Positions 18,279 through 34,209 of a stretch of 47,593 bases of DNA are shown piece after piece. The first letter of the stretch is position 1; each line of letters begins with the position of its first letter. The DNA comes from Clostridiaceae bacterium (lineage in GTDB: Bacteria > Bacillota > Clostridia > DSM-8532). The translations under genes and the position numbers were made by a program. The notes beneath the pieces are model-generated. The model saw nothing but the letters and a program-made list of their open reading frames with translations. It did no database searches and was not told the DNA's origin. The stretch covers positions 1 to 47,593 of the forward strand of contig JAAYFY010000015.1 of NCBI GenBank assembly GCA_012728015.1, given 5' to 3'.

Positions 18279-18308
18279 TTGACAGGACAAGTTCATTCAA
18301 GTTATATT
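18279..18308 (+). promoter_or_regulatory. Sigma-A promoter of the trpP-ecf operon
   Basis: TTGACA at 18279-18284 is exact. TATATT at 18303-18308 follows after 18 bp (or TTATAT after 17). The transcript would start near 18315, directly before the triplet array. Confidence 0.75.
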
Positions 18309-18317
18309 TATTTAAAG

Positions 18318-18360
18318 AAGCAGAGATGAGATGAGAATAGATCAGAAGAGATGAGAAGAG
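18318..18360 (+). promoter_or_regulatory. trpP: Candidate TRAP-binding site, nine NAG triplets
   Basis: The triplets AAG, GAG, GAG, GAG, TAG, CAG, GAG, GAG and GAG begin at 18318, 18323, 18328, 18333, 18338, 18343, 18348, 18353 and 18358. The period is exactly 5 nt throughout, leaving two-base spacers. TRAP (MtrB), the 11-subunit tryptophan-sensing protein of Bacillus, binds 9-11 (G/U)AG triplets with two- or three-base spacers. Seven of nine triplets here are canonical. The array lies at the very start of the predicted transcript of a TrpP-family gene. TRAP itself is not encoded in this window. Confidence 0.65.
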
Positions 18361-18368
18361 GCTAATGG

Positions 18369-18420
18369 CTGAAAGATGATACATATCATGGTCAGGCGTC
18401 TCCTGGCCATTTTTATTTTA
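18369..18420 (+). terminator. trpP: Leader terminator with competing hairpin
   Basis: ATGGTCAGG (18388-18396) and CCTGGCCAT (18402-18410) form a 9-bp stem around CGTCT, followed by TTTTATTTTA, a good intrinsic terminator in the leader. An alternative hairpin uses CTGA (18369-18372) with TCAG (18392-18395) and ATGAT (18376-18380) with ATCAT (18385-18389). It would occupy the terminator's 5' arm, so the two structures cannot coexist. This is the layout of a transcription attenuator. Confidence 0.65.
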
Positions 18421-18475
18421 TGCCATTCCTTTCATCCCACCTCTGCGAAATTTAAAATTCAAGGAGGTTTTTTTC

Positions 18476-19066
18476 ATGTCACAGGAAACCATGCGCAAAA
18501 GGACTATCCAAAACAAATCCAGGAAAGGCATGTCGGCAACCGATATTATCCTGGTGGGCGTGCTGCTGGCAGCGGGCGCGGTTCTTAAACTCTTTGTAGG
18601 AGCCTTTTTCACGGCTGGTATGAAACCCAATTTCATAATCGCTATGTATTGCCTGGCCATCATCCTGATCAGGCCGCGCCTGTACGAGGCCCTTATTATC
18701 GGAATCCTGGCAGGAGTCATATCCCAGTTTTTCCCTGGCACACCCTACCTGAACCTGATCAGCGAACCCATAGGGGCCGTTATTATGCATCTGCTGATGC
18801 TTGTCCCCATCAGGATGGAGGTGGGAAGGATTTCCTTCAAGCCTGTTTTTGCCACCTTTATCGCGACGCTGTGCAGCGGTTTTTCCTTCCTGGGCGCCCT
18901 CTATCTTCTGTTCTATGCCGGGGCCAATGTCTCGGCTATGCCTGTGGCTGTCTTTTTGGGCATTATTCTGGGGACCGCGGCTATCAATGCCGTAATAGTA
19001 GAGGTGTTGTATGTCCCGGTTAAACTGGCCCTTGGAAGGAAGGTAACCAATGATCCGGTTCAATGA
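18476..19066 (+). CDS. trpP: TrpP-family tryptophan transporter, ECF S component
   Basis: This 196-residue membrane protein has five or six hydrophobic helices. It resembles TrpP (YhaG) of Bacillus, with the family feature of a GMKPNFIIAMYCLAIIL segment and a RPRLYEALIIGILAGVISQFFPG stretch matching the MKPDMMLLM and TGIISALTTAFPG regions there. In ECF systems such a protein binds the substrate in the membrane and docks on the shared EcfT/A/A' module. Here the module is encoded directly downstream (17-bp overlap with ecfA1), so this is a dedicated four-gene transporter. The ATG follows AAGGAGG. Tryptophan as substrate is inferred from family and from the TRAP-like leader; another aromatic compound is possible. 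Confidence 0.8.
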   Translation: MSQETMRKRTIQNKSRKGMSATDIILVGVLLAAGAVLKLFVGAFFTAGMKPNFIIAMYCLAIILIRPRLYEALIIGILAGVISQFFPGTPYLNLISEPIGAVIMHLLMLVPIRMEVGRISFKPVFATFIATLCSGFSFLGALYLLFYAGANVSAMPVAVFLGIILGTAAINAVIVEVLYVPVKLALGRKVTNDPVQ

Positions 19067-19931
19067 TGTTTCCTTTTCATATGAGCACGGCGAGGGGTTC
19101 GCTGTGCAAAACATCAGCACGCATATAGGAAGGGGCGAATTCGTGGGCATTATCGGCCCGTCCGGGGCCGGCAAGTCCACCCTTCTTTCCATGATTAACG
19201 GCGTGATACCTCATTTCCACAAGGGCGACTTCTATGGTGAGGTTCTTGTTTGCGGCAAAGACACGGTGGAAAGCACCTGCGGCGAGATTTCCCATCATGT
19301 GGGAAGCGTGTTCCAGGACCCGGAAGCCCAGATAGTTTCGATGGTTGTGGAGGATGAGATTGCCTTTGGCCTGGAAAACTTCGGTATCCCTGCCGACGAA
19401 ATAGAGACCAGGATGGCCGAAGCCCTGAAAATGGCTGGTATTGAACACCTGAGGCGTCAAAGCACCACCGCCCTTTCAGGAGGACAGAAACAGCGGGTAA
19501 CCATTGCCGCGGCCATCGCCCTGAGGCCTGAAATACTGGTTCTGGATGAACCAACATCCCAACTTGATCCTGTGGGAAGTCGGCAGGTCTTCAGAACCCT
19601 TAAGCGGCTTAACCAGGAATATGGCATTACAATCCTCATTGTGGAACAGAAGGTCTTGCTTCTGTCCGAGTTCTGCAGTCGGTTCATGGTTATGGATAAG
19701 GGTCGGATCATCATGGACGGGCCCATTCGCCAGGTCCTGGAGCATAACGACAAGCTGTTGGAGTTGGGCATCAACTGTCCCAGGGTCGTTACCCTCACAA
19801 AGCTCCTGCAAGACGCCTCCCTCTACTCCGGCGGATATCCCGTGGATGTGGACGAGGCTGAATCGGTTATAAGAAAGATAATGGAGGAAACCCATGATCA
19901 GTATCAGGAATCTGAGCTATCGGTACAATAA
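19050..19931 (+). CDS. ecfA1: ECF transporter ATPase A (EcfA1)
   Basis: This 293-residue cytosolic ATPase is one of the two nucleotide-binding subunits of the ECF module that drives import through EcfT. It has Walker A GPSGAGKST, Q-loop SVFQDPEAQIVSMVVEDE, signature LSGGQKQRVT and Walker B ILVLDEPTSQLD. The FQDPEAQ pattern is typical of ECF ATPases. The start overlaps the end of trpP by 17 bp, with GGAAGG upstream. Its 3' end overlaps ecfA2 by 38 bp, indicating a tightly coupled operon. Confidence 0.92.
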   Translation: MIRFNDVSFSYEHGEGFAVQNISTHIGRGEFVGIIGPSGAGKSTLLSMINGVIPHFHKGDFYGEVLVCGKDTVESTCGEISHHVGSVFQDPEAQIVSMVVEDEIAFGLENFGIPADEIETRMAEALKMAGIEHLRRQSTTALSGGQKQRVTIAAAIALRPEILVLDEPTSQLDPVGSRQVFRTLKRLNQEYGITILIVEQKVLLLSEFCSRFMVMDKGRIIMDGPIRQVLEHNDKLLELGINCPRVVTLTKLLQDASLYSGGYPVDVDEAESVIRKIMEETHDQYQESELSVQ

Positions 19932-20721
19932 AAAAGCGCCGTTGGTTTTGGATGATATCAGCCTGGAGATAGGACAAGGAGAGTTTGTGGCGCTTATCGG
20001 ACAGAACGGCGCCGGCAAGACCACTTTGCTGAAACAGCTAAATGGCCTCTTAAAGCCATCTTCTGGCAGTGTTATCATCAAGGGCCTGGACACGGCGGCC
20101 ACAAAGACCAGCAGGCTGGCCCCCCATATCGGTTTTCTGTTTCAGAACCCGGATCACCAGATCTTCTGCGGTACAGTCTACGATGAGATCCGCTTTGGCC
20201 TGGTCAATACCGGATGCCAACAGGAGCTGATTGACGGGAGGATAAGGAGGATCTCCGGGCTGCTCGGCCTTAACAGCATATTGGACCAGAATCCCTTCGC
20301 ATTGAGCAAGGGTGAACGGCAAAGGGTCGCCCTCGCATCGGTTCTGGCGCTTGAAACCGATATCCTGGTCCTGGACGAGCCCACCACCGGCCAGGACTAT
20401 AAGGAATGCGTCGAGATCATGGAGATCGTGAAAGACCTGAACCAGCGGGGAAAAACCATAATCATGGTATCCCACGACATGGAGGTTGTGGCGGACTACT
20501 GCAAGAGGGCCGTCGTTCTTCATAACGGCCGTGTGCTGGAAGACGATGATACCGGTGTCGTCCTGCGCAAAAGCGACAGCCTTAGGATGGCGGGCCTGGA
20601 ACCGCCCCAGATAATACAGCTCGCCCTCCGCTTCGGACCTATTTTTAAGAATGTTATCTCGCCCGAGGATATGGCCCATGCCATCGTTTCCCGTGCTGTG
20701 ACGGGGGGTATGAGGGTGTGA
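19894..20721 (+). CDS. ecfA2: ECF transporter ATPase A' (EcfA2)
   Basis: This 275-residue ATPase is the partner of EcfA1. It has Walker A GQNGAGKTT, FQNPDHQIFCGTVYDE (the ECF Q-helix region), a variant signature LSKGERQRVAL, Walker B ILVLDEPTTGQD and the switch His in MVSHDME. The variant signature suggests one of the two ATP sites may be asymmetric, as is common in heterodimeric ABC ATPases. GGAGG lies upstream of the ATG. The stop overlaps the GTG start of ecfT by four bases (GTGA). Confidence 0.92.
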   Translation: MISIRNLSYRYNKKAPLVLDDISLEIGQGEFVALIGQNGAGKTTLLKQLNGLLKPSSGSVIIKGLDTAATKTSRLAPHIGFLFQNPDHQIFCGTVYDEIRFGLVNTGCQQELIDGRIRRISGLLGLNSILDQNPFALSKGERQRVALASVLALETDILVLDEPTTGQDYKECVEIMEIVKDLNQRGKTIIMVSHDMEVVADYCKRAVVLHNGRVLEDDDTGVVLRKSDSLRMAGLEPPQIIQLALRFGPIFKNVISPEDMAHAIVSRAVTGGMRV

Positions 20722-21479
20722 AGCAAATGCTCGGATATGTCCATGGCAACTCGGTCATTCACAGGCTCAACCCCCTGACAAAGCTCCTGTGGGCAGTTGC
20801 TGCCTGTGTGGCATGCTTTGTAAGCAGCAATCATCTTTTCTTGCTGGGGGTACTGGTGCTCACCGTCGTTATAGCCGGCGTGAGCGGAGTTCTGGGCAGG
20901 GCCGCGGGCGTATACAAAGCCCTGTTCATACTGGGCTTGTTCCTCATGCTGTTCCAGCTTTTATTCACACCCCATGGTCGGGTTTACTTCTACATACTTC
21001 CGGGCGTGCCAGTAACCGATATGGGTCTTGGCTTCTCATCCCTCCTGATGCTCAGGATGATGGCCGCGTTGTCACCCTTATCGCTGATGCTTATGCTCAC
21101 CCCCATGAACGAGCTTCTGACAGCCATGACACACAGCCTCAAGGTCCCCTACCGGTATGCCTTCGCGGTGGTTACGGCACTGCGCTTCATACCCGCCTTC
21201 TCGCAGGAGATGGACCAGATAATGCAGGCACAGCGGTCCCGCGGCCATGAAACCGATACCAGGAATCCTATTAAAAAAATACGGGTTATCATTCCCATGT
21301 GCGTTCCCCTGTTAATCTCATCGGTCAGGAAGGTTGAAACCATGGCCATATCTCTGGAAACAAGGGGATTCTGTACCGGGCCGCGTTCATGCAGGAAAAA
21401 GCTTGGATTTACATTATTCGACCTATTGGCTATAATCTTAGTCATGGCTGTTTTGTCGCTAAGCGTCATCATTGGTTGA
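20718..21479 (+). CDS. ecfT: ECF transporter transmembrane component EcfT
   Basis: This 253-residue integral membrane protein couples the two ATPases to the TrpP-like S component. It has about five transmembrane helices and a cytosolic coupling region with two Arg-Gly motifs, QAQRSRGHE and SLETRGF, which dock into the ATPase grooves in known ECF structures. It starts at GTG 20718, overlapping the ecfA2 stop. It is followed by a 106-bp gap to iorA that contains a CAGCAG/CTGCTG hairpin without a T-run and no evident promoter, so read-through into iorA is plausible. Confidence 0.9.
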   Translation: MKQMLGYVHGNSVIHRLNPLTKLLWAVAACVACFVSSNHLFLLGVLVLTVVIAGVSGVLGRAAGVYKALFILGLFLMLFQLLFTPHGRVYFYILPGVPVTDMGLGFSSLLMLRMMAALSPLSLMLMLTPMNELLTAMTHSLKVPYRYAFAVVTALRFIPAFSQEMDQIMQAQRSRGHETDTRNPIKKIRVIIPMCVPLLISSVRKVETMAISLETRGFCTGPRSCRKKLGFTLFDLLAIILVMAVLSLSVIIG

Positions 21480-21585: not shown

Positions 21586-23382
21586 TTGATAAAACTTCTG
21601 ATGGGCAATGAGGCTATTGCCCTTGGAGCCATAAAAGCGGGAGTCCGCGTGGTTTGCGGATACCCGGGCACACCTTCAACCGAGATTCTTGAAACCGTTG
21701 CAAAGAATAACGACGGTTCCATATATACCGAATGGTCGGTAAACGAGAAGACCGCCATGGAAGTGGCTGCCGGAGCTGCCTATTCAGGCGCCCGGGCCAT
21801 GGTAACCATGAAGCAGGTGGGTCTTAACGTCGCCTCAGACCCGCTCATGAGCCTGGTCTATATAGGCGTAAAAGGCGGGCTGGTTATCGTGGTTGCTGAT
21901 GACCCCGGGCCGCTGTCTTCCCAAACAGAGCAGGATACCCGGCACTTTGCGAAGTTCGCCAACCTGCCCGTCCTGGACCCCTCGACCCCTGAAGAGGCCT
22001 ATGAGATGGTCCAGGCAGCTTTTGAGCTGTCTGAACAGGTAGGTCTTCCTGTTATCCTGCGCCCGACCACAAGGATATGCCATGCCTGTTCTTCCATCGA
22101 CGTGTCCGACACCCGTGAGGAACACGTACCCGCGGGCTTTGAAAAAGACTCACGCTGGGTCATATTCCCCCAGCTTTCCTATAAAAGGCATATCGAGACA
22201 GAAAAGCTCCAGATCGCCCTGTCGCTTATTTTCAGCAAGAGCCCGTTTAACAGGATTTCGGGTAAAGGGCCGCTGGGCATAGCCGGATCGGGCATCGCAT
22301 GGTCATATGCCCAGGATGTGATCAGCGACCTGGATATGGATATCAGGACTTTTAAGGTGGGCACACCTTATCCGTTCCCGGCAAAGCTGGCTGAAAGCTT
22401 CCTGGACGGGCTTGATGCCGTACTGGTATTGGAGGAACTGGATCCTGTGGTGGAAGAGGCCCTGCTTGAAATAGCGGGCAGCAAGGGACTCAAAATAAGT
22501 ATCCTGGGGAAAAAGACCGGAAATACGCCCTATGCCGGGGAGTTTTCCTACGAGCTTGTACATAAAGCCATCTCTGATTTTGCAGGCTTACCAAATCCGG
22601 ATATCGCTGATCCGGCCATTCCGACCCTTCCATCGCGAATTCCCGTGCTTTGCGCCGGATGCCCCCACCGGGCTTCCTTCTATGCGGTCAAAAAGGCCAT
22701 GAAGGGACAGAAGGCTGTTTTCACCGGCGACATTGGCTGCTACACCCTTGGGAACGCAAAACCTTTAAGCATGGTGGATACCTGCCTTTGCATGGGCGCT
22801 TCCATCAGCGTGGCGCAGGGAATCAAGCGAATTGAGCCCGATACCAGGCTATTTGCCTTCATCGGCGATTCAACCTTCTTCCATACAGGCATACCCGGGG
22901 TTATCAACGCTGTCTATAACCAAACCGATATCGTTATCGTGGTTCTTGACAACGGCACAACAGCCATGACAGGGCATCAGCCCCATCCCGGAACAGCAAA
23001 TACCATGATGGGGAACATATCTGAAAAGATAGATATCGAAGCCCTTCTAAAATCTGTCGGAGTGAAGTGGGTACGGAAAGTCAATCCCTTCGATCAAAAA
23101 ACCGCAATCCTTGCGGCGAAGGAAGCATCCGTCGTGAAGGGCGTTTCAGCAATAATTTTCGAGGCTCCCTGCATAGCCCTTGTGAAGAAACCTGAGCCCC
23201 TCAATGTGGACTCCGAAAAATGCAGGGCATGCGGTCTGTGCATAAGGGAAATCGGATGCCCGGCCATGGTCCTTGAGGAAAACGGCAGGGTCCGGATTGA
23301 GCCGTCCGCCTGCTACGCCTGCGGTTTATGCGGCAGTGTATGCCCCTTTGAAGCCATTGGAGGGATGAGTAATGAGGACTGA
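21586..23382 (+). CDS. iorA: Indolepyruvate:ferredoxin oxidoreductase, alpha subunit
   Basis: This 598-residue thiamine-diphosphate enzyme subunit (with IorB) interconverts arylpyruvates (indolepyruvate, phenylpyruvate) and aryl-acetyl-CoA plus CO2, using ferredoxin. The N-terminal pyrimidine-binding domain has GYPGTPSTEI and EWSVNEKTAMEVAAGA. The diphosphate-binding domain has GDIGCYTLG and DNGTTAMTGHQPHPG. The C-terminus carries two [4Fe-4S] ferredoxin motifs: CRACGLC near residue 546 and CYACGLC near 576, each with its distal CP. It starts at TTG 21586 with GGTGAT as the nearest ribosome site. It overlaps iorB by 11 bp. The enzyme is oxygen-sensitive, consistent with an anaerobe. Confidence 0.95.
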   Translation: MIKLLMGNEAIALGAIKAGVRVVCGYPGTPSTEILETVAKNNDGSIYTEWSVNEKTAMEVAAGAAYSGARAMVTMKQVGLNVASDPLMSLVYIGVKGGLVIVVADDPGPLSSQTEQDTRHFAKFANLPVLDPSTPEEAYEMVQAAFELSEQVGLPVILRPTTRICHACSSIDVSDTREEHVPAGFEKDSRWVIFPQLSYKRHIETEKLQIALSLIFSKSPFNRISGKGPLGIAGSGIAWSYAQDVISDLDMDIRTFKVGTPYPFPAKLAESFLDGLDAVLVLEELDPVVEEALLEIAGSKGLKISILGKKTGNTPYAGEFSYELVHKAISDFAGLPNPDIADPAIPTLPSRIPVLCAGCPHRASFYAVKKAMKGQKAVFTGDIGCYTLGNAKPLSMVDTCLCMGASISVAQGIKRIEPDTRLFAFIGDSTFFHTGIPGVINAVYNQTDIVIVVLDNGTTAMTGHQPHPGTANTMMGNISEKIDIEALLKSVGVKWVRKVNPFDQKTAILAAKEASVVKGVSAIIFEAPCIALVKKPEPLNVDSEKCRACGLCIREIGCPAMVLEENGRVRIEPSACYACGLCGSVCPFEAIGGMSNED

Positions 23383-23992
23383 TATTCTTATCGCGGGAGT
23401 CGGCGGACAAGGCCAGATCCTGGCGTCACGACTGATAGGCACTGCAGCCATCCTGGAAGGCTATGCCGTAAGGACGGGCGAAACCATCGGGATGGCCCAG
23501 AGGGGCGGATCGGTGGTCAGCCATGTCCGTATAGGCGGGGAAAGCATGGCAGCCACCATTCCCTTCGGCAGTGCCGATCTTTTGATAGGTTTTGAACTGT
23601 GCGAAACCGTAAGGAATATAAAGCGCCTCTCGAAAAACGGCAGACTCATTGTTAATATCCAGAGGATCAACCCTGTCACGGTATCGCTGGGCATGGATGA
23701 ATATGACGGTACCGCAATGGAAGAAGCATTAAGGGATGTGACCAGCAGCCTTATCATGATTGACGGTTATGCCCTGGCCATTGAAGCAGGATCAATCAAG
23801 GCTGTAAACACAGTCCTTTTGGGAGCCTCGGTGGGATCAGGATACCTGCCCATATCAAGGGAATCCTTTATGGAAGCTATAAGAAGCATAATCCCTCAGA
23901 GGTTTCATAGCATTAATTTTACCGCGTTTGACAGCGGCTATCATATGGCCCGCCACATAATTGCGGAAGACGTTGAGTTGAAGGAGAGATAG
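23372..23992 (+). CDS. iorB: Indolepyruvate oxidoreductase, beta subunit
   Basis: This 206-residue gamma-type subunit of the 2-oxoacid:ferredoxin oxidoreductase superfamily partners with IorA. The motif GVGGQGQILASRLIG binds cofactor, and GETIGMAQRGGSVVSHVRIG is the family signature. The start overlaps the iorA stop by 11 bp, so the two are translated together in near-equal amounts. Its stop is 3 bp before the first start of the CoA ligase gene. Confidence 0.94.
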   Translation: MRTDILIAGVGGQGQILASRLIGTAAILEGYAVRTGETIGMAQRGGSVVSHVRIGGESMAATIPFGSADLLIGFELCETVRNIKRLSKNGRLIVNIQRINPVTVSLGMDEYDGTAMEEALRDVTSSLIMIDGYALAIEAGSIKAVNTVLLGASVGSGYLPISRESFMEAIRSIIPQRFHSINFTAFDSGYHMARHIIAEDVELKER

Positions 23993-23994
23993 CA

Positions 23995-25260
23995 TTGATG
24001 AGCTTAGCAAGAGGAGAGATTAGCATGAGAGCAGACCAGTTCGCAAACATAAAGGAATTGCTGGAAAGAGTCTTCGCCAACAGTCCATTCTATCGCAGAA
24101 AGTTTCAGGAAGCAGGGCTGACTGCGGACTGCATCAGATCGCCCGAAGATTTTCTTAAAATCCCCTATTCAAACAAGGAGGAGCTTAGGCTGGCCTATCC
24201 CTTGGGTCTTCTGTCGGTCCCCCAGGACGAGGTGGTACGCATCCATTCTTCCTCAGGGACAACCGGAATGCCTGTTATCATCCCCTATACCCGTCAGGAT
24301 GTGGAGGACTGGGCAGAGATGTTCGCCCGCTGCTATGAGATAGCGGGCATAACCAAAAGGGATGTGATCCAGATCACGCCGGGCTATGGGTTATGGACAG
24401 CGGGAATCGGTTTTCAGGCCGGTGCCGAAAAACTGGGCGCCATGGCCGTACCCATGGGACCGGGCAATACCGACAAGCAACTCCAGATGATGATGGATCT
24501 TAAAAGCACCGTGCTCTGCGCCACATCCTCCTATGCCCTGCTGATTGCCGAGGAAATAGAACGGCGCGGAATTAAGGACAGGATCCATCTAAAGAAAGGA
24601 GTCATCGGTTCGGAGCGCTGGGGCGACCTTATGCGAAAGCGGATCAAGGATGGACTTGATATAGAGCTTTTTGATATCTATGGACTCACTGAAGTCTATG
24701 GCCCGGGTATTGCCATAGACTGTGAGCATCATAAAGGCATACACTATTTTGACGATTTCCTGTACTTTGAGATCATCGACAGTGAAACCGGAGAGGTCCT
24801 GCCCGACGGCCAATTCGGGGAACTGGTTGTTACCACCTTCAAAAAGGAAGGCGCGCCGCTGGTCCGCTATCGTACCCACGACCTGACACGTATTATTCCT
24901 GAAAAGTGCCCCTGCGGCAGGAGCTATCCCATGATAGACCGGATAATAGGAAGAACCGACGATATGGTCAAGGTTAAAGGCGTGAACATCTATCCGGGCC
25001 AGGTGGACAGCATCCTTAAGGACATACCCGGTGTAAGCAGCGAATACCAGATTGTCATTGACCACAAGAACGGCAAGGATACTCTCACGCTGCGGGTAGA
25101 AAGGGAACCTGACTGCCGCAGGTCTGATCTTGACAGCATGATTATGGATTGTTTCAAAAAAAGGGTCGGTATCAGGATCAATGTTGAGCCGGTTGACTTC
25201 GGCCTGCTTCCGCGCAGCGAGAAGAAAAGCCAGAGGATACTCGATTACAGGGCTAAATAA
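23995..25260 (+). CDS. paaK: Phenylacetate-CoA ligase family protein
   Basis: This protein of up to 421 residues is an AMP-forming acyl-CoA ligase that activates arylacetates such as phenylacetate or indoleacetate to their CoA thioesters. The P-loop is SSSGTTGMPVI, the A5-type motif is YGLTEVYGPGIA, and the hinge is GRTDDMVKVKGVNIYPGQV. CPCGRSYP carries the two Cys often seen in this family. Two starts are plausible: TTG 23995 with AAGGAGAG upstream (used here) and ATG 24025 (MRADQFANIKELLE) with GAGGAG upstream. It is directly coupled to iorAB. In anaerobes this gene pair can run either way: arylacetate to arylpyruvate for amino-acid synthesis, or the reverse for fermentation. Confidence 0.9.
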   Translation: MMSLARGEISMRADQFANIKELLERVFANSPFYRRKFQEAGLTADCIRSPEDFLKIPYSNKEELRLAYPLGLLSVPQDEVVRIHSSSGTTGMPVIIPYTRQDVEDWAEMFARCYEIAGITKRDVIQITPGYGLWTAGIGFQAGAEKLGAMAVPMGPGNTDKQLQMMMDLKSTVLCATSSYALLIAEEIERRGIKDRIHLKKGVIGSERWGDLMRKRIKDGLDIELFDIYGLTEVYGPGIAIDCEHHKGIHYFDDFLYFEIIDSETGEVLPDGQFGELVVTTFKKEGAPLVRYRTHDLTRIIPEKCPCGRSYPMIDRIIGRTDDMVKVKGVNIYPGQVDSILKDIPGVSSEYQIVIDHKNGKDTLTLRVEREPDCRRSDLDSMIMDCFKKRVGIRINVEPVDFGLLPRSEKKSQRILDYRAK

Positions 25261-32982: not shown

Positions 32983-34209
32983 CTACTTAATCCCAAGCTT
33001 CTCCCCGTATTTTTCGATCACATAATCCATATCCTTGTCACCGCGGCCGGAAAGGTTGACCAAGATGGAACCGGTACCCATCTCCCTGGCGAGTTTCATG
33101 GCATATGCTACGGCATGGGCGCTTTCCAGTGCCGGGATAATGCCTTCCATCCTGGATAAGGTGGAAAAGGCATGGATGGCTTCTTCATCATTTGCCGTTA
33201 CATATTTGACACGCCCCAACTCTTTCCAGTAGGCGTGTTCCGGACCACTTGAAGGATAGTCCAGACCGCTTGCGATGGAATATACCGGAGCGGGCTTGCC
33301 GTTTTCATCTTTCAGCATTATTGAATTAAACCCATGCATAATACCTTCAGAGCCATATGTCAGGCTGGCCGCGTGCTGACCGAGCTTTGTGCCGAGACCC
33401 AGCGGTTCAACACCGTACAACTCTACCGGGTCATTCAGAAAAGCCGACATGATACCTGCGGCGTTTGAACCCCCGCCCACACAGGCAACAACGGCATCGG
33501 GCAATTCGCCGGTCATATCCAGGAACTGCTGTCTTGCTTCAACTCCTACCACCGCCTGGAAATCCCTTACCATCATGGGGAAGGGGTGCGGCCCTACAAC
33601 AGATCCTATGCAATAAATGGCGTGTTCATATTCATTGAGATATGCCTCAAATGCAGCGTCAACCGCTTCCTTCAGGGTTTTCAGCCCGTGGGTAACCGGT
33701 ATCACCCGCGCTCCAAGAAGTCTCATGCGGGCAACATTTGGCGCCTGTTTTGCGATATCCACTTCACCCATATAGATATCGCATTCCAGGCCGAAGTAAG
33801 CTGCGGCTGTGGCCAGCGCAACGCCATGCTGACCTGCGCCGGTCTCCGCTATGATTTTCTTCTTGCCCAAAAACTTCGCCAGAAGTCCTTCGCCCATACA
33901 GTGGTTCAGTTTGTGGGCTCCGGTATGGTTCAGGTCTTCACGCTTCAGATAAATCTGGCAGTTCCCGATGGAGTTGGACAGGCGTTCGCAATGGCATACC
34001 GGAGTCGGGCGACCCTGAAATTCCTTCCTGATCCTTCTCAGTTCATGAATGAACTTGGTGCTCTTGCATATGGTATGATAGGCCGTTTCAATTTTCTTAA
34101 ACTCATCCACAAGCTGCGGAGGAACATAGGCACCGCCATACCTTCCAAAATATCCGTTTTTATCGGGTGTCGTCTTTAAATACACTGAAAAATCCATTTC
34201 TTTTTGCAT
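32983..34209 (-). CDS. trpB: Tryptophan synthase beta subunit-like protein, standalone
   Basis: This 408-residue PLP enzyme joins indole and serine to make tryptophan in canonical members. The PLP lysine lies in [45 protein letters not shown], the phosphate-binding GGGSNAAG and the C-terminal SGRGDKDM are all in place. It differs from the usual TrpB in [12 protein letters not shown] (normally HKxNNxxGQALL) and [13 protein letters not shown]. No trpA or other trp gene is near, so it probably uses free indole or has drifted in substrate. AAAGGAGA precedes the ATG, and a good promoter lies 95 bp upstream. Confidence 0.88.

Follow-up and report, generated by a model that had tools for sequence, protein, structure and literature searches.

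This locus raises the question of whether an importer of tryptophan in a clostridial bacterium is controlled by TRAP. To our knowledge, nearly all work on TRAP has been done in Bacillus. In the window, by which we mean the whole stretch of 47,593 nt that was analysed, the original prediction had pointed to periodic NAG triplets upstream of a TrpP-family gene, close to a predicted transcription start and next to a terminator. It proposed a tryptophan-dependent switch working by a route unlike that of Bacillus subtilis trpP.

TRAP targets consist of about 9-11 NAG triplets, mostly GAG or UAG, separated by spacers of 2-3 nt (PMC4347634, PMC3913778). In B. subtilis, TRAP acts on trpEDCFBA by attenuation and by favouring a hairpin that hides the trpE Shine-Dalgarno (SD) sequence, and at trpP, trpG and ycbK it blocks the ribosome site directly (PMC3913778, PMC4347634, PMC11255114).

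The triplet array and its surroundings

Read directly from the window sequence, the array comprises the triplets AAG, GAG, GAG, GAG, TAG, CAG, GAG, GAG and GAG, starting at 18318, 18323, 18328, 18333, 18338, 18343, 18348, 18353 and 18358. It fits the definition of a TRAP target, with nine NAG triplets, seven of them GAG or UAG, and 2 nt in every spacer. When the first 80 nt were shuffled 5000 times with dinucleotides preserved, no shuffle gave nine NAG triplets spaced at exactly 5 nt (mean, 2.3). The run was the longest on both strands of the window, the best on the minus strand being 4 and that in a reversed-sequence control 7. We also counted unbroken chains of (G/U)AG alone. The chain in this leader is merely four long because CAG interrupts it, and it was equalled in 273 of the 5000 shuffles. 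Being weak by itself and too insensitive here, this measure was dropped.

The array begins about 3 nt past the transcription start predicted from the promoter (Table 1), and sites resembling TTGACA/TATATT are also found upstream of the arrays of relatives. The neighbouring terminator was recovered as a pattern match and the downstream gene as a member of the TrpP family, so that the arrangement originally described was confirmed throughout. The genes from trpP to ecfT make up the complete composition of a TrpP-type ECF transporter, with the TrpP S component, two ATPases and EcfT. About 100 nt separate the array from the trpP SD sequence, and there is no overlap with the trpP ribosome binding site in the window leader. 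Thus, the layout of B. subtilis trpP is not found here, as had been anticipated. Searched with Rfam at gathering thresholds, the window gave no match, including to the T-box (RF00230). The T-box sequence of relatives, GGUGGNACCGC, is absent from the leader.

Table 1. Features of the trpP-ECF operon, its leader and related loci. Positions are those of the window unless a locus is named.
Feature	Position	Strand	Basis
Sigma-70-type promoter, TTGACA-18-TATATT, predicted start ~18315	18279-18308	+	pattern match, 11/12
TRAP-type array, nine NAG at 5-nt period	18318-18360	+	sequence, shuffles, arrays in 16 leaders, TRAP gene in genome
GCAGAG, anti-anti-SD segment in array 5' end	18320-18325	+	pairing analysis, model
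Predicted antiterminator partner (array 3' part and next bases) of terminator 3' arm and U-tract (18396-18419)	18348-18367	+	model only
Intrinsic terminator, hairpin and U-rich tail	18388-18410	+	pattern match
ACCUCUGC element: ACCUCU (18439-18444), anti-SD; CUCUGC (18441-18446), pairs with 18320-18325	18439-18446	+	
SD sequence of trpP, GGAGGU	18463-18468	+	sequence
trpP, tryptophan-type ECF S component	18476-19066	+	PF17099, E=1.5e-13
ECF ATPase	19050-19931	+	PF00005
ECF ATPase	19894-20721	+	PF00005
EcfT transmembrane component (CbiQ/EcfT)	20718-21479	+	PF02361
Six (G/U)AG triplets over trpB2 ribosome site, outside the window	L019:2935-2962 (G000:C40:76934-76961)		
TRAP gene locus with L/I in place of F32/K37	L020:6317-6571 (G000:C93)		

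TRAP is encoded in the genome

The original prediction held that a genome without mtrB would speak against it. A PF02081 match (E=1.3e-35) lies at G000:C93:16343-16543 in the window's genome; of the 14 control genomes, only B. subtilis had one. The protein was identified as MtrB above the NCBIfam equivalog cut-off, and a phmmer search with it retrieved solved MtrB structures. Because TRAP is encoded here, the objection falls away. A TRAP gene was present in 16 of the 32 genomes of the family, including all five of the window's genus.

The TRAP of the window's family keeps IKVRG (K56, R58) and has L and I at the positions of Bacillus F32 and K37, both of which are kept in Ruminiclostridium. F32 and K37 of Bacillus TRAP take part in RNA contact. 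RNA recognition in the window's family may differ in detail, though its apparent targets remain GAG/UAG.

Leaders of trpP in relatives

TrpP was found in 11 of the 32 family genomes. In the five members of the window's genus and in G014, trpP is preceded by an array and then by the adjacent terminator hairpin. A wider scan of TrpP loci revealed arrays in Ruminiclostridium cellobioparum, whose trpP operon is likewise of the ECF type, R. hungatei, R. papyrosolvens and a related MAG, and a family search yielded five further arrayed leaders. TRAP-type arrays precede trpP in all 16 leaders of two lineages, one being the window's genus with one other family member and the other the Ruminiclostridium family. 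Conservation among relatives, an expectation of the original prediction, was therefore observed throughout the genus and the Ruminiclostridium family, with a T-box instead in relatives that lack TRAP. Such T-boxes precede trpP in G016, G019, G020 and G021, with Rfam E values of 1e-15 to 1e-17 at scores slightly below the gathering score.

Some leaders have both elements. In G001, which encodes TRAP, a GAG array covering the trpP ribosome site comes immediately after a T-box (L027, last 100 nt before trpP). This array was reached by 19 of 2000 shuffles and is fairly convincing. Judged from these elements, the G001 mRNA would carry two sensors of tryptophan, a T-box and a TRAP array. In five Synergistaceae leaders from TRAP-encoding genomes (L035, L036, L037, L039 and L071), a T-box is followed at the ribosome site by a GA-rich tract that is not significant against shuffles.

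TRAP was encoded in 22 of 22 genomes with an array or GA-rich tract at trpP versus 1 of 23 without, and in 17 of 17 genomes with a trpP-leader array when the five Synergistaceae were excluded; these counts are not phylogenetically independent, and a single clade holds the array-only trpP genes. An exception is the TRAP-encoding G064, where trpP has only a T-box (L091) and the TRAP array precedes trpE.

Two predicted, mutually exclusive helices

In all 16 leaders, GYAGAG is kept at the 5' end of the array and CCUCURC shortly before the SD sequence. Among the 15 distinct leaders, GYAGAG and CUCURC can pair in 100% of cells, compared with 33-51% in slid controls. At the Y-R position, eight leaders have U-A, six have C-G and one has U-G. 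This two-sided change probably reflects a single evolutionary event between two clades, with one intermediate besides. The covariation argument is somewhat weaker because the A of the Ruminiclostridium CUCUAC can pair in the anti-SD helix too. The anti-SD and SD sequences, ACCUCU and GGAGGU, can pair in 85% of the nine-pair cells, and their core, CCUCU:GGAGG, can do so in all when G-U is included. No covariation was found in this helix. As the two helices share an overlapping element, they are mutually exclusive.

The leaders were folded in models that give equilibrium predictions. With the array of the window leader blocked, the probability of the terminator rose from 0.07 to 0.89 and that of the anti-SD:SD helix from 0.25 to 0.98; the outcome was similar at 25-50 °C. 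When triplets 6-9 alone were blocked, the terminator flipped and the SD sequence stayed free; when the first three alone were blocked, the SD sequence was masked and the antiterminator stayed. Among the six leaders modelled in this way, a terminator switch was predicted only for the window leader (G000) and G031, the terminator being stable without TRAP in G029, G030, G028 and G014. An SD switch was predicted for G000, G031, G029 and G028, figures that leave out G030, in whose model the mask missed the 5' triplets. In the Ruminiclostridium leaders we saw no terminator comparable to that of the window, and the model masked the SD sequence with or without TRAP. Since it is masked in both equilibrium states, a switch in these leaders would have to work co-transcriptionally.

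Proposed control and its alternatives

From these sequences, it is highly probable that TRAP represses the trpP-ECF operon. It also seems likely that the leader of trpP-ecfAA'T is a target of tryptophan-activated TRAP, with proposed effects on both the terminator and the ribosome site. Binding, its dependence on tryptophan and the two switches at the window leader are proposed from sequence and folding model together. With ample tryptophan, the TRAP ring would wrap the nine triplets as they emerge. On the 3' triplets it would take away the antiterminator partner, so that the hairpin terminates transcription; on the 5' triplets it would break the long-range pairing of GCAGAG with CUCUGC. With that pairing broken, the anti-SD could therefore pair with the SD sequence and hide the ribosome site on read-through mRNA. 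When tryptophan is scarce, TRAP would leave and the importer would be made. That termination and SD masking act together is about as likely as not.

One alternative is that TRAP acts on translation only, through the 5' triplets and the anti-SD, and that the hairpin is a constitutive partial terminator. The anti-SD and anti-anti-SD elements occur in every one of the 16 leaders, the terminator just in the window's genus and G014, and four of the six models have a terminator that is stable without TRAP. However, blocking triplets 6-9 alone flips the terminator in the window-leader model, and the hairpin with its U-tract is conserved beside the array in the window's lineage. We consider this alternative rather unlikely. 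The converse, that TRAP binds and only attenuates transcription while the complementarity of CUCURC to the SD sequence is incidental, would agree with the closeness of the terminator to the array and with the switch modelled in G000 and G031. It is made improbable by CCUCURC itself, which is retained across 15 distinct leaders, among them those of a lineage with no visible terminator, and changes in step with the array.

Purine-rich tracts do occur, and the Synergistaceae tract before trpP was no better than shuffles, but an array that is simply low-complexity GA-rich sequence without a regulatory role seems very improbable given the exact 5-nt period, which no shuffle reproduced, and triplets that are conserved and confined to TRAP genomes and tryptophan genes. 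A T-box or another tryptophan-sensing RNA needing no TRAP has in its favour the T-box at the same place in TRAP-less relatives, but with neither an Rfam match at gathering thresholds in the window nor the relatives' T-box sequence in the leader, its probability is negligible.

Other TRAP-type arrays

The window's genome has arrays at two places, the trpP leader and the ribosome site of trpB2, which encodes a TrpB-like enzyme (TIGR01415). The latter array is a candidate second TRAP target, with the direct-block layout; like the anti-SD element and its possible pairing with the 5' end of the trpP array, it goes beyond the original prediction. Such an array at trpB2 was present in all nine TRAP-encoding genomes of the family, G028 having the weakest (score 2.9), versus 1 of 14 without TRAP, the single case being G013, an assembly 86% complete.

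We also scanned 66 genomes for five perfect triplets, with a reversed-pattern control. Nearly all of these strict arrays lay before trpP, trpE or trpB2 and in TRAP-encoding genomes. Those before trpE (anthranilate synthase) were in G028, G032 and G064 (L195, L196 and L197). In G032 the control gave four matches and the signal two, and the case therefore rests on the location before trpE. The remaining matches were a single one in G033, equalled by its control, and simple GAGAA repeats in G048, for which control and signal were likewise equal. Leaving these aside, the scan found no other strict arrays in TRAP-less genomes.

Evolution of the tryptophan sensor

In a maximum-likelihood tree of TrpP, midpoint-rooted purely for display, the array-only leaders of the window's lineage and Ruminiclostridium fell in one clade (97/92). 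Leaders with a T-box and an array or GA tract lay outside it, in a weakly supported group (62/15), and T-box leaders lay further out. The branching fits a path from T-box to both and then to TRAP. Our fullest reading is tentative, and we lean slightly against accepting it whole: one TRAP site would serve two switches, its 5' half acting on translation through the anti-SD and its 3' half on transcription through the terminator, and the trpP lineage would record a passage from T-box through both (G001, perhaps Synergistaceae) to TRAP alone. As the same operon has a T-box, TRAP or both among relatives, replacement of the sensor is directly testable.

Comparison with known systems

The window leader resembles that of B. 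subtilis trpEDCFBA in having a promoter-proximal array, a downstream terminator and a possible SD-hiding hairpin once TRAP is bound (PMC3913778, PMC11255114). It differs in that it precedes an ECF tryptophan importer in another host lineage and has 9 triplets rather than 11, and in that the 5' end of the array itself is a possible pairing partner of the anti-SD. The trpP of B. subtilis (yhaG) belongs to the same transporter family as the window's trpP, which is a predicted TRAP target as well. However, at B. subtilis trpP, trpG and ycbK TRAP covers the translation start (PMC11255114), whereas the array here lies well upstream of the SD sequence; it is the trpB2 array that shares their layout. 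Judged by sequence, the leader is a trp-operon-type build on a gene of the directly blocked group. On sequence and model, the locus most likely encodes an importer repressed by TRAP, with a leader closer in kind to that of the B. subtilis trp operon than to B. subtilis trpP.

The T-box leaders of trpP-ECF operons occupy the same position in the same operon. If their specifier is UGG, a reading made by eye, they would also respond to the same signal, low tryptophan. Unlike the window leader, a T-box senses uncharged tRNA by RNA alone and is present in TRAP-less relatives.

In the open-licence papers searched, we found no description of an ECF trpP operon controlled by TRAP or of TRAP in Ruminiclostridium, nor was the layout of this leader described there. 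The present results add a predicted TRAP circuit for an ECF tryptophan importer in Clostridia, cultured Ruminiclostridium species included.

Neighbouring genes

Elsewhere in the window (32983-34209, minus strand), a TrpB-like PLP enzyme (PF00291) is encoded; among the longer ORFs listed, none of its neighbours is a trp gene. Downstream of the ECF genes and on the same strand lie iorA, iorB and a gene for a PaaK-like CoA ligase (21586-25260), neighbours that suggest a link between import and the breakdown of aromatic amino acids. They may be set apart from the ECF genes by a promoter-like site at 21408-21436.
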